NCBI GenBank assembly: GCA_943704415.1
Contig: CALSCO010001884.1
Coordinates: 1 to 36,030 of the forward strand
DNA length: 36,030 nt
Direction of reading: 5' to 3'
From: Parvularia atlantis
Lineage: Eukaryota > Opisthokonta > Rotosphaerida
The notes below the pieces were generated by a model, which saw nothing but the letters and a program-made list of their open reading frames with translations, was not told the DNA's origin and searched no databases. Made by a program: the position numbers and the translations under genes. Below, one piece after another: positions 1-6,689 of the stretch. The stretch's first letter is position 1, and each line of letters begins with the position of its first letter.

Positions 1-41
1 CCCCCCTGGCACCCCATTGCGCCGCTCACGTGGCCCGGCAG

Positions 42-3000
42 CCCCCACGCTCCAGACGCCCACGCAGGGCACCGTCGTGCAGGTCAACACCACCGTCTCG
101 TTCACGTTCCGCCAGATGCTCCCGTCCGCCAACGGCCTCGGCTGCAACAGCAACAGCTTCCCCGTGGGCTACATGGTGCGCAGAGCGTGACGAGCCACGG
201 CCGCCCGTGCCGACCGCGCGCGCAGGTTTACCTCGCCCCGGCTGGCACCGCCCAAGGCAGCCTGCAGCAGTTCCAGCTACTCGAGACGCCGATCGCGCAG
301 CAGAGCACCGCGGCCGTCGTGACCACCAACTTTACGCTCACGACGTATGTCGCGCCCCCCACACCCCGCAACCGGCGCTCACGCACCCGTCCCGGCGCGC
401 AGGCCCGGCTCTTACATCTGGACCGTGACCTACTCCAACGGCGGCCTCATCAGCTACGGCGCGCTCAACACGCTCACCGTCTGCAGCCTCTCGGCGCCCA
501 CGCTCATCTCGCCGGCCAAGAACGCCCACTTTGACACCTTCTCGGGCACGCAGCCGACAATCTTGCTCACCTGGAGCGCCGCCGCGGCGACCTGTGCGGC
601 GCAGAGTAACCGCACCCGTTCGCCCGCACTCACGCGGCGCACGCAGCCTGCAGCACCGCCAACATCGTGTACCAACTCGACGTCTCAGGCCTGGGCACGT
701 ACCACGTCACCGGCACAAGCTACACCCTGCCGCCGATCGCCGATGGTGCGGCACGCCGAGCACAAGGCAGCGCACTGCTGACACAAACCTCTCTTAGGCA
801 TGTACACGTGGACCGTCACGGCGATCGCGGGCGCGATCTCGTCGCAGCCCTCGGCCTCGTCCACCTTCTACCGGTGCGCCGACCTCGCCGCAGCGTGCAC
901 GCCTCCGTCTCACACCGCACACAGGTGCACCTACGCCCCGCCGCGCCCCGCCGCGCTGTCCGCACCTGCCAACAGCGAAATCAGCACTGAGACGTTTGTC
1001 GCGGCAGCGCATGCCTGGGCGGCTTCTCACGCGCGTACCCACAGGTCCCAGACGCTCTCGTGGTCGACGCAGCCGCCGTTCACCTTTGGCGGCCAGTGCT
1101 CGATCACGCCCAACCAGTTCAGCTTCACGCTCTCGGTCACGTACAACAACGTCGTGACCAACTACACCCTCGGCACCAACACCGTCTACGTGCGTGGATT
1201 GCAACGGTCGCGCACTGCAGACGCCTCACCGCCTGCACGCGTACACAGACGCTCAACAGCCTCGCCGTGGGCGGGTACTCCTGGACGGTCTACACCAGCA
1301 ACGCCGTGTACAGCCTCGGCGTCACGCCATGGACGTTCACGATCGGCGTCGCGTGCTCGCTCGAGGCGCCCACCGCGCCTGTGCTGACGGTTCCCGTGAC
1401 GAGTGCCGTGCTGCCGTCGGTACTCCCAGACGGGCGCGCGCGCTTGCGACTCACTACGCGCGCAGACGTCCGCGGCGCTGGTCTGGAGCCTGCGCTCGAC
1501 CGGGCAGTCGTGCACGTCCGGGCCCGAGTTCTTCCGCCTAAACGTGACTGCGCCTGACGGCATCACGCAGTCGTACCAGATCAGCTCTGACGTGACCTCG
1601 TACACGCTCAGCGGTCTCGTCGTCGGTGCGCACGGCGCTGCGCAGCCCGCACGCAGCGCTGACGCTGTCGCACAGGCACGTACACCTGGACCGTGTCGTA
1701 CACCAACGCGGCTGACCTCACCACGACGTCCTCGCCCTCGTTGTTCACGATCTGCCTCCCGACGGGCCTGCGGTGCGGCGCGTCCACTGTGCCGCGCAAT
1801 CGGGCCAACCGCTTGTGCGTGCGCGCAGCGTGCCGACGATCGCGGCACCGACCACACCCACCGTGGTCTCGCTCACCCCGCCCACCGTCACTTGGACGGC
1901 CGCGACGCCAACGATCGTGTGCTGTGCGTCGGCGCAGCGCGCGGTCCGCCCTTGCCCTCACATGCACCCCGACACTCACTCACGCAGACGCGAGCTACCC
2001 GATCGACTACCTCGTCACGGCGACGTGCACGCAGTTCTGCACCGGCACGCCCGGCGCCGTCGTCCAGGTCGGCGGCACCGACATTTCCTCGAGCTACGTC
2101 CCCCTCGACGGCATCGGCGGCCTCTGGACGCTTCAGGTCTCGGCCCGCGCGCGCGTCGTCGCGTCCGACACGTCGGCCTCGACCACCGTCCAGTACCAGT
2201 ACTGCACGCCCGTCTACCCAGACGTGCCCGCGCTGATTTCGCCGAGCAACAACCAACTCAACCTGTTGCCCGACGTCGTCATCGCGTGGTCGGTCGCCAA
2301 CTGGGAGACCGTGGCCGCGTGCAACACATTCGTCGCGGGCTACCAGATCGACGTCTACATCGACACGACCTACGACTTTTCCTCGCCCAACCTCGACGTG
2401 CGCACGTTCAACGTCACGACCATCGCAGACCTGCCGACGTCGATCAACTGGACCGCGCCAGCCAGCGGTGCGCGCACGCACGCGGGGCCGGGACGCCGTA
2501 GCTGACAGTCCGTGCGCGTGCAGGCTCGTACTACTGGAAGGTGGTCGCAACCAAGTGGATGAACGCGGGCAGTGTCGCGTCCTACCAGCGCACGTCATCC
2601 GTCAGCCTCTTTTCGGTTGGGCAACGACGCGCGAGCGCGCTGCGCACGGCCGAAGCTGAAGCGCGCTGTGCACGCGTGCGCAGGTCTGCGTCAACGTCCC
2701 GCCCGTCGCGCCGAGCATCAGCGCGTTCCTCAACGAGACGCTCGACATCACGTACGACAACGTGACGGCCACGCTCACCTGGTCGTCGTTCGCCTTCAGC
2801 GATGTGCGCGCATGCACACGAAACAGCGGAGCGCGTGCTGAACCGCGCGCAGTTTGGCCTCACCTGCGACTACGACGTCGCCCAGCGCCCGTTCGTGCCG
2901 ACGATCGAGCTCTTTGTCGGCACAAGCGACAACTTCACCACCGCGCTCGCCGTGCGTGCCCCCGTGACCCGCGCTGCGCGGCATCGCCCGACACGCCCGC

Positions 3001-5241
3001 ACGCGCACTCGCAGTCGTACCCGTGGACCACGCGTCTGGTCGACATCACGGCGCTGCTGACCGGCAACAGCACGTTCTACTGGCGCATCGGCCTGTCGAA
3101 TGGCCTCGCGACGACCCTGTCCAACACGGTCGCCTTCAACGTCGTGTCGTACGCGACCTCGACGCCGCCGCCGACCTTCCCGCCGACGCTGCCGGTGCGC
3201 GCCCTCTTACGGCACACGACGCGTGCTGACACGGCGCGCGCGCAGGGCGGGACCACGCTGTGCCCGGGCTGCGGTGAGCTGGGCGTGGCGGGGCTGCCGG
3301 CGGGCGCGATCGCCGGCATCGTCATCGCCATCGTGCGTCATTGGCGCGGTCGCCTGCGCTCAGTGGCTGACGACCGCGCGCAGATCCTGAGCGCGATCAT
3401 GTTTGTGGTCGCGTTCATCTGGTGGCGCCGCAGCAAGCGCGACAAGGACGCGGACCGGCTCGAGAAGCTCGAGTCAATGTTTGACATGACGCCGACGCGG
3501 GTGCGCACCCTCGCGAACGTGCGGCCGCAGCTCACGCGCGCGCGCGTGCGCCCGCGCTGCCACAGGACGACGCACTCAATGCGTACGTCGTCCCTGCGCA
3601 CACCCTGGCCCTGTACAACCCACGGCACCCGCTCTACGCCATCAAGGTGCGACCGCAGCGCGCGTACGGCCGCGTCCGTGTGTCTGACATACGTGCGCCA
3701 AACAGGGCAAGCCCATCTGGCAGACCTTTGAGGAGCTCGTGGTCGCGCGTGACTTCAAGCTGCCGTTCCTGCTGCTGCAGGGCGTCGAAAAGTGCGCGCT
3801 TGATGCAGGCGTGCGCGGTGCCAGCAAACTCGCTCACGCGCGCCCGCGTGCGCGCGCGATGTCCGCAGCACCGAACACGCCGACGTCGTGACCAAGTCGC
3901 TCGTGTACCTGTTCCAGGTCCACGGCTGCGCCGACGACCTCATCCGCTTCCTCATCTCGCGTGAGGTCCGTAAGGCCGAGAAGGACAACGTGCTCGAGGC
4001 GTCGACGCTCTTCCGTGCCAACAGGTGCGCCGCGCGTCGTTTGTGCCTCGCGCGCGCTCATCACCGGCACGCGCAGCTTTGCGTCGGCCGCCTTCACGGC
4101 CTACTGCCGCGTCGAGGGCCTTGAGTACCTCGTGGCGACGCTGCGGTCGTTCCACGTCGAGATCATCCGCAGCGCGGAGAAGGCCAAGATTGAGGCCGAC
4201 AAGAAGGCCCGGCTCGAGAGCCGGCACACGGTCGACAAGGGCGTGGTGGTGCAGACCAAGACGTCGCGCAACGAGGTGCGAGCTGCGTCCGCGGGGGCAA
4301 TCGCAGCTGAATCGGCGCGTCGCCAGCTGTTCCGGGGCAATATGGAGGTTGACCCGAACCGGGTCGAGCACGAGGACGATGTGGTCGTGAATCGGATCGC
4401 GCTGGAGCTGACATGCCAGCGCCTGCTCACGGCGATCCTGCAGTCCGAGAGCTACTTCCCGATCCGGCTGCGGTGCGCTGCCGTGCGGCTGGGCGTGCGC
4501 CTACTAACGCCGTGCTGTGTGCCCACAGCAACATCATGCACCACGTGCGCGAGACGATCAACGCACGCTTCCCGACGGCCGCGCCGGCCGCGATTGGCGG
4601 GTTCATCTTCCTGCGGTGCGCGTGCCGCGCGCCCCCCTTCGCACGTCCAGACTGACCCAGCGGCGGCGACGCAGCCTCATCAACCCGGCCATCATCACGC
4701 CGGCCTCGTTTGGCCTGCTGCCGCAGGACCCGGACTCGGACGTGAAGCGGCAGCTCGTGCTCGTGACCAAGGTGCTGCAGAACCTGGCCAACGGCACAAG
4801 CTTCAAGGAGGACTTCATGAAGAGCATGAACGACTTTATCGACGCCAACCGCGAGCGCATGGAGCGCTTCTTCCGCGAGGCACGTCGCCGCGCGAGGCAA
4901 GCGCACTCGGCACGGCTCATGTGCGTCGCCAGGTGTCCAACAAGCCAACGGCCGCCAACCCCCCGCCCGTGCCCGTGCCGGACCACGTGCACTACTACTC
5001 GCTCGCGGCGCTGCACGACGTCCTCTGCCGCCTCAAGGCCAAGGCACGCGCACGGGCGTCTCGCGGGTCCCGTGCACTAATCGCACTGCACGGCGGCCGG
5101 CAGATCATGGGCACGCTGGACGAGGAGGCGCGCCTGCGACCCGAGCAGGCGCACGGCATCCGCTCGCGCTTCATCGACGTCATGGCCGAGCTGGGCGAGC
5201 CCGTGCCGCTGCAGCCGCCGGCCGAAGCCGTCGCCGTGTGA
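42..5241 (+). CDS. Transmembrane RasGAP with FN3-like ectodomain (5' incomplete)
   Basis: About 1262 residues are visible; the gene runs off the left edge. Exons: 42-175, 226-344, 403-593, 647-745, 798-873, 925-993, 1045-1189, 1249-1419, 1466-1625, 1676-1772, 1829-1923, 1988-2467, 2524-2615, 2684-2803, 2853-2951, 3015-3194, 3246-3332, 3384-3500, 3566-3646, 3706-3791, 3869-4024, 4077-4472, 4529-4615, 4675-4879, 4933-5043, 5104-5241. Residues 1-780 hold about seven repeats of some 100 residues with a recurring Y-x-W-T-V strand, cysteines and N-glycosylation sequons, resembling fibronectin III/Ig-like folds. A hydrophobic helix (about 793-815, ending FIWWRRSKR) is followed by a cytosolic RasGAP domain with the arginine-finger segment TLFRANS and the signature FLRLINPAIITP. 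RasGAPs switch off Ras by speeding GTP hydrolysis. Seen: the motifs and the fusion. Inferred: extracellular contact modulates Ras at the plasma membrane. The introns at 4880 and 5044 use GC donors; the second is in frame and less certain. Confidence 0.9.
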
Positions 5242-5298
5242 GAAACGAAGAGAAAAGCTGAGCGTGTTGTAGCTGTCCGCAGTCTGCTCCGTATCATC

Positions 5299-6689
5299 AT
5301 GGCGGTGCGTCGATCAACCATCGCGCTGCCCGCTGACGCGCGCGCGAGCAGCTCGGCCTCGCGCGCCTGCCGCTGCTGCCGTGGCTGCACCTGAACCACA
5401 GCCTGTTCACGGCGCGCAAGATGCGTCTGCTGCCGGGCTGCCTCGAATACAGTGGCGTGGGCGGCACAGCGTGCGCACACGCAGCCGCTCAGACGCCGCG
5501 CAGACCGCAAGTACCCGCTCGCGGGGCTCGTCGGCTTCCTCGCGGTCAACTTTGGCTCGGCCATCATGCTCAGCGTCTTCCTGCGCGAGGACTGGGGCTT
5601 CCTCGCTGACAACTTCCAGGTGCCCTCGGCCGTCGCGTGCTGGTGCGTCCGGCGTCTGCGCTCGGGCGGCTGGGGCTGACGCGCGGGCCCCAGGTACGTC
5701 GTCTTCTTTGCGCCGCTCGACCTCGGCTTCCTCGCCGTGGACCTGCTGCCTGTACAGGTACCGCGCGCATGCGCGCGCGCGCGCATGGGCTGCCGAGCGC
5801 TCGCTGAGAGCCGGCGGCGGCGCAGTTTGCGATGGCGGCGGTCGAGGGCGTCCGCAATGCGCTCAAGAACGTCGACGGCGTGCGGCACGGCCTGAGCGCC
5901 TTTCCGGGCTCGTGGACGACGGCAGTCGTGTGCGGCTTCCTCGGCGGTGCGCACGCCGCACACGCTGCTGCCGCTGCCGCTGTGCCCTCACGCCGCGGGG
6001 CACAGGCTGCGGCAGCTCGTTCGTGCTCTGGTTTGAGCGGCAGTCGCGCGGCGTGCACGCCATCCACGACCTCAACAAGCCGTCAGGGTGCGCGGCTGAG
6101 CTGTGCGTTGTGTGTGCACTGCGGCCGACCCGTGCCGCGCAGGTTTGTCAAGCTGTGCCTCGTCGTCAGCCTGCTGTTTGTCGTGCTCGGCGATGCAGCG
6201 GCGCTCTTGCCGCCCAAGTACGCTCTGAGCGACGAGACGGGCACGGAGCTGGCCATCGTGCTGCACGTCGCATTCCTGCTGGCCGCGGTTCTCAACAAGG
6301 CGCGTTGTGCGCCGCTGACCCGCTCGCGCGTTCGCTAACACTGGCCCGCGGCGCCGCAGAACTTTGACCCGCTCGCGCTGCCGTTTGCGACGCTGCGGCT
6401 GCTACTCTTTGGCGTGACCGCGGGCGACGACGAGCACCACCACCCGCACGGCCGGCACCCAAAACCGACAGCCGTCGACGTCGAGGTCAAGGGCGAGGAG
6501 CCGGCCGTGCCCAAAACCGTGATCGCGCCGGGCTCGGCGACCAAGGCGGCCGCGTCGACGCCGCAGGGCTCGCCGGCGCCGAGCGCCATCGCGCTGTCCG
6601 GGCCGTCGGCGTCGAGCAGCGGCGTTGGGCTGGCCGAGCCTGTGGAGGCGCCCCCGGCAAGGCGGCGCGGGAGGAGCGTGCGCGAGTGA
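5299..6689 (+). CDS. TMEM38: TRIC trimeric intracellular cation channel
   Basis: The spliced model gives 332 residues from exons 5299-5304, 5352-5451, 5504-5642, 5694-5757, 5826-5946, 6006-6087, 6143-6299 and 6360-6689. The first exon is only ATG GCG. TRIC proteins are K+-permeable channels of the ER/SR that balance charge during Ca2+ release. Collinear matches to the animal family: RKYPLAG followed by a Gly-containing helix, WYVVFFAPLDLGF, LLPVQ before the KEV-region helix, the GG-containing pore helix, and a C-terminal LRLLLFG followed by a His-rich stretch (DDEHHHPHG) like that of vertebrate TRIC-A. The KEV motif of TM4 is altered (VEG in place of KEV), which may change gating. The tail is basic (PARRRGRSVRE), as in ER-retained members. 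The last intron (6300-6359) has a GC donor. The ATG lies 57 bases after the RasGAP stop. TRICs are best known from animals and prokaryotes, so a protist copy is notable. Confidence 0.88.

Follow-up and report, generated by a model that had tools for sequence, protein, structure and literature searches.

A receptor-like, classical-type RasGAP with a repeat ectodomain and a single transmembrane helix, and its relatives in other protists

The window analysed here covers positions 1-36030 of contig C455, one of 616 contigs in a 16.25-Mb assembly, with a GC content of 0.67-0.74 in 1.5-kb steps. At its left edge lies a forward-strand gene whose 27 exons splice into a single reading frame of 1251 complete residues, with the stop at 5241, close to the roughly 1260 residues that a first-pass annotation of the bare sequence had counted. 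That annotation had proposed a receptor-like Ras GTPase-activating protein (RasGAP), and the architecture is borne out: extracellular-type repeats, one transmembrane (TM) helix and a complete RasGAP domain stand in one spliced frame, and the arrangement recurs in 43 of 98 relatives. The features are as follows.

1..41, + strand: 3' part of an intron whose 5' part would be the last 15 bases of contig C163 (gene strand); inferred join, with the break in a C run
42..5241, + strand: whole visible gene (Viterbi splice model), its 5' end truncated at the contig edge
42-175, + strand: first exon of the visible gene (splice model)
44..3152, + strand: ectodomain of seven FN3-like repeats, starting near 44, 491, 944, 1372, 1771, 2221 and 2705 (repeat alignment)
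3153..3305, + strand: Pro/Thr/Gly/Cys stalk on the N-terminal side of the TM helix, with intron 3195-3245 inside it (translation, by eye)
3306..3425, + strand: single TM helix AIAGIVIAIILSAIMFVVAFIWW, split by intron 3333-3383 (hydropathy; intron position conserved in the C190 paralogue)
3519..3565, + strand: intron at which two separate genes had been feared to meet (alignment column 80 in both this gene and the C190 paralogue, phase also kept)
3972..4792, + strand: RasGAP domain (PF00616), the part matched by the Pfam profile
4014..4016, + strand: arginine-finger codon, in TLFRANS (R in 43/43 receptor rows of the alignment)
4608..4702, + strand: FLRLINPAIITP motif, split by intron 4616-4674 (FLR arginine in 43/43 receptor rows)
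5104..5241, + strand: last exon and stop codon (splice model; C-terminal stretch conserved in the C190 paralogue)

The gene has 26 visible introns of 46-77 nt, all ending in AG, of which 24 begin with GT (20 of these with GTGCG). The two GC-AG introns lie at 4880-4932, placed by eye as was the intron at 1420-1465, and at 5044-5103, placed by comparison with the paralogue. Position 42, where the first-pass annotation began the gene, is an exact exon start following the acceptor ...CGGCAG. The coding score was 752, against 115 for the reverse strand and 3-18 in ten first-order Markov re-draws; because the scorer was trained on the same gene this contrast is inflated, and the score alone is not proof. 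Independent tests with the paralogue and the relatives agree with it.

The first-pass annotation had itself raised the concern that the exons before 3500 and those after 3566 might belong to two genes, or that the TM helix might be lost in the real splice form. A fusion by our reading of two genes, or of an assembly artefact, would fit a draft in 616 contigs that break in C runs, and a gene read without RNA of the same organism. Against this, a paralogue on contig C190 (- strand, running to its contig end) contains stalk, TM helix and GAP in the same linkage, with 73-75% identity to the window gene. Each of the ten window introns across the TM helix and the GAP domain, the TM-splitting one among them, is matched there in alignment column and in phase, and C190 has one extra intron within the GAP. 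The two-gene objection fails because these positions and phases are shared, and the feared loss of the TM helix fails with it. A third locus, on C574, also joins a TM helix to a RasGAP, and seven of the 43 receptor-type relatives (P0014, P0017, P0039, P0065, P0067, P0069 and P0088) bear TRINITY names, as given to assembled transcripts; we therefore regard a fusion as extremely improbable. Between the window gene and C190, the ratio of nonsynonymous to synonymous substitution (dN/dS) is 0.33 over 274 GAP codons and 0.47 over all 456.

The cytosolic domain is a complete classical RasGAP. Pfam RasGAP PF00616 scores 96.8 bits (E 2.1e-27; cut-off 28.3) over profile positions 7-207 of 207, as measured on an earlier 1260-aa gene model, and the nearest PDB entries by sequence are neurofibromin (best, E 5.1e-30), SynGAP and p120GAP. 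Both the arginine finger and the FLR arginine, residues with known roles in RasGAPs, are in place, the former just as the first-pass annotation had read it; GAP activity is predicted. The genome also holds 68 exon-level RasGEF matches and 86 matches to PF00071, the latter including other GTPases, since 12 of 14 prokaryote controls matched as well; substrates are thus likely present.

N-terminal to the TM helix, seven repeats can be seen, each about 100 residues long and FN3-like in pattern. The first-pass annotation had called them Ig/FN3-like modules, and here the repeats stand while the fold is less certain: Pfam fn3 matched one of 12 repeat sequences (seven from the window, five from a paralogue on contig C211; E 0.035), and a profile of the repeats reached FN3 structures at E 0.08-5 only. 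The window protein has one TM segment, followed by RRSKRDK, a positive-inside flank of type I orientation, so that the signals of a type I single-pass layout are present.

The window lacks the N-terminus. The most likely place for it is the end of contig C163, with the break inside one intron. When the N-terminal portion of the C211 paralogue was used as a query, the matches were C211 itself, two window exons and one more place, C163:14-544 (-), at a contig end. A donor and a C run close C163; the window opens with a C run and then the acceptor, and the reading frame continues over the join (1+2 = 0 mod 3). Joined in silico, the protein would have 1496 aa with a signal-peptide-like hydrophobic start, and its hydrophobic segments by Kyte-Doolittle (21-residue window, cut-off 1.7) are two: that start and AIAGIVIAIILSAIMFVVAFI. 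It carries 31 cysteines and 11 N-X-S/T sequons before the TM helix and four cysteines and one sequon after it. In the C211 paralogue, a signal-peptide-like start and an ectodomain were read by eye, from a gene model that takes in upstream neighbours as well. C211 breaks off at a C run in the corresponding intron, so C211 and C190 are probably two halves of one gene. Ends of C163, C455, C211 and C190 fall within C homopolymer runs of introns, so that genes are divided between contigs.

The window gene is not unique, and it is the family, rather than the single gene, that is the finding. As the first-pass annotation had suggested, we looked for other proteins pairing a RasGAP with a TM helix. 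At least three of the 22 RasGAP loci in this genome are receptor-like, namely the window gene, C211/C190 and C574, so that at least two further loci accompany ours; C574 has a signal-peptide-like start, a TM helix and a RasGAP, and an EGF-like motif before the TM helix was read by eye where Pfam gave RasGAP only (E up to 0.1). Among the 98 relatives, gathered in three protein searches, the 43 receptor-type proteins have their TM helix 26-66 residues (median 46) before the GAP. Lysine plus arginine is higher after the helix than before it in all 43, and cysteine density is higher outside in 38. Likewise 38 of the 43 begin with Met, and 21 of these have a strongly hydrophobic start, versus 1 of 55 other proteins.

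Their ectodomains, scanned with Pfam in 14 of the 43, differ widely. Matches were to EGF in P0001 (Lithocolla globosa, Opisthokonta), to LamG in P0022 (Balamuthia mandrillaris, Amoebozoa, where the protein is named 'ira2'), to LamG and IPT in P0004, P0005 and P0017 (LamG below cut-off in the last two), to PSI and IPT in P0024 and P0088, to cadherin/Ig-like families in P0077 and, in P0039, to a periplasmic-binding-like part; for P0003 and P0014, no ectodomain family exceeded the Pfam cut-off. Receptor-type classical RasGAPs thus occur in at least one amoebozoan and at least one non-animal opisthokont, with differing ectodomains. P0001, P0022, P0002-P0005, P0024 and others share the TM-GAP arrangement and the GAP clade with the window protein, and differ from it in bearing EGF, LamG, IPT or PSI where it has seven FN3-like repeats. 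In a GAP tree of 108 rows, which contains no plexin, reflects receptor-seeded sampling and has a bootstrap not fully settled, 42 of the 43 receptor GAPs fall in one clade (ultrafast bootstrap 100, SH-aLRT 97; quick tree SH-aLRT 98) together with one non-receptor row, P0016, probably truncated. Outside the clade are rows named or typed as RASA1, RASA3, RASAL, IQGAP-like or SEC14-bearing.

The receptor-type RasGAPs P0071, P0077, P0078 and P0086 are listed with cadherin/Ig-like ectodomain families, and each has at least one further hydrophobic segment, which in P0077 may be a signal peptide. The GAP match exceeds 550 residues in P0071, P0077 and P0078, and in P0077 falls into two Pfam stretches, probably tandem GAPs.

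Our preferred reading, to which we give a probability of about two in three, is a type I single-pass receptor RasGAP whose GAP is controlled by its ectodomain, in effect an 'off' receptor. The putative signal peptide encoded on C163 would send the large, cysteine-bearing FN3-like ectodomain outside; one helix would span the membrane and lead through a short basic juxtamembrane segment to a classical RasGAP with its catalytic arginines. Engagement, clustering or tension of the ectodomain would then most likely alter the packing or density of the GAP near the membrane and, through the helix, cause a local drop of Ras-GTP or Rap-GTP. In this way extracellular contact could plausibly be coupled directly to Ras inactivation, with Ras or Rap as the putative substrate.

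The main rival is an adhesion protein with a constitutive, anchored GAP, in which the ectodomain adheres or positions the protein and the TM helix holds an always-active GAP near Ras, with no ligand gating. A classical GAP with catalytic arginines would suit such a protein, as would the absence of a plexin-type Rho-binding domain (RBD) by Pfam from the window protein and the 14 relatives scanned, and many adhesion proteins contain EGF, LamG, IPT and FN3-like modules. Weakly favouring coupling instead are the short TM-GAP spacing in 43/43 receptor-type proteins and the structure model of relative P0025, in which a helix runs through the membrane (residues 362-397) at moderate confidence (block means 54-83). 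On balance we consider the anchored GAP unlikely.

Several points weigh against the ectodomain-controlled receptor. The gene model was read from genomic sequence alone, signal peptides were assessed by hydropathy and eye only, and it is from contig ends that the joins of C163 to the window and of C211 to C190 were deduced. 'FN3-like' is a description only, because profile support for FN3 is weak, and the fold, which is not firmly assigned, is the weakest part of the picture. Over the 67 codons preceding the GAP, dN/dS between the window gene and C190 is 0.79. All three protein searches were seeded with receptor GAPs, and one receptor-type row, P0086, falls outside the receptor clade. Non-receptor rows of the alignment keep the arginine finger in 64 of 65 cases and the FLR arginine in 65 of 65, so both residues mark a RasGAP, not a receptor. 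Finally, architecture, topology signals, intact catalytic arginines, conservation and the existence of the family are observed, while surface location, ligand or contact sensing, gating and substrate are predicted from them.

Next downstream of the receptor gene, on the + strand, lies a TRIC channel gene (5284-6623; PF05197, E 7.8e-21). Beyond it on the - strand, from 6830 to about 8300 and extending upstream, one gene model contains an oxysterol-binding protein (PF01237, E 1.7e-48) together with a CDK5RAP3 homologue (PF05600, E 4e-85); this model probably joins two genes. On C163, upstream of the receptor N-terminus and on the same strand, its neighbour is MESD, a chaperone of LDL-receptor relatives (locus L051; PF10185, E 3.5e-16).

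The usual view is that receptors activate Ras by way of guanine nucleotide exchange factors; plexins, as receptor RasGAPs, are to our knowledge the known exception. Our data suggest that cells far from animals probably also have receptors able to switch Ras off directly. More tentatively, and with less than even confidence, we propose a second ancient class of receptor RasGAPs apart from plexins: a membrane-tethered lineage of classical GAPs that may predate the split of Amoebozoa and Opisthokonta and have been kept since, its ectodomain repeatedly swapped (FN3-like, EGF, LamG, IPT, PSI, cadherin-like), and whose members would respond to contact or matrix cues by turning Ras off directly. If true, the direct inactivation of Ras by receptors would have an older origin and a wider spread, and the family would offer a simple cytosolic module for testing receptor control of a GAP.

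The statement in the first-pass annotation that typical RasGAPs are cytosolic or membrane-recruited holds for the classical proteins and omits the plexins. Plexins consist of a Sema-PSI-IPT ectodomain, a TM helix and a GAP split by a Rho-binding domain. Like the window protein they have a single-pass, receptor-type layout in which a RasGAP-fold domain sits close to the membrane on the cytosolic side, and the likeness extends to the PSI and IPT matches of some receptor-type relatives. A divergent plexin is one rival reading. Yet the plexin GAP family, PF08337, has no match in the window protein at E up to 1, nor at E up to 0.1 or 0.01 in the 14 receptor-type relatives scanned; the window protein has instead the classical PF00616, and no match to Plexin_RBD (PF20170). 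Sema gave no Pfam match in it or in the proposed N-terminus; the genome-wide Sema search had no control that matched. The receptor alignment gave 121 PDB sequence matches, and the best 60 of them include no plexin; Foldseek with the predicted fold of P0025 places p120GAP, NF1 and SynGAP (2.8e-12 to 7.6e-8) before plexins (2.1e-5 and weaker). Moreover, the same genome encodes a separate plexin (locus L052, contig C491:9500-14863, - strand; PF08337 332 bits, Plexin_RBD 55 bits), with four IPT stretches, PSI below cut-off, one strong TM helix, an N-terminus off the contig and introns of the same GTGCG type as the window gene. A RasGAP profile built from eight domains, six of them receptor and two cytosolic, gives no match to this plexin. 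A plexin identity is thus largely refuted and very improbable: by the two cytosolic features tested, the receptor RasGAPs have a plexin-like layout and are not plexins.

The receptor RasGAP as a kind is already known from plexins; the separate classical-GAP receptor family would be a new form of it. In the portions of the literature consulted, receptors with a RasGAP were met only as plexins, and a published survey (PMC6374515) dates plexins back to the ancestor shared by choanoflagellates and animals. Our genome gave no cadherin match, which hints, weakly, that the host lies outside the choanoflagellates; if so, plexins reach further than published.

With the classical RasGAPs, the window protein shares its GAP sequence, arginine finger and FLR motif (neurofibromin, p120GAP/RASA1, SynGAP), and the predicted fold of its relative P0025 is also alike. 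Those proteins stay in the cytosol or reach the membrane periphery by modules such as C2, PH, SH2 or SEC14, and such modules were also met in the protein searches and domain scans. Unlike them, the window protein is built around a TM helix, with an ectodomain and, by the proposed join, a signal peptide.
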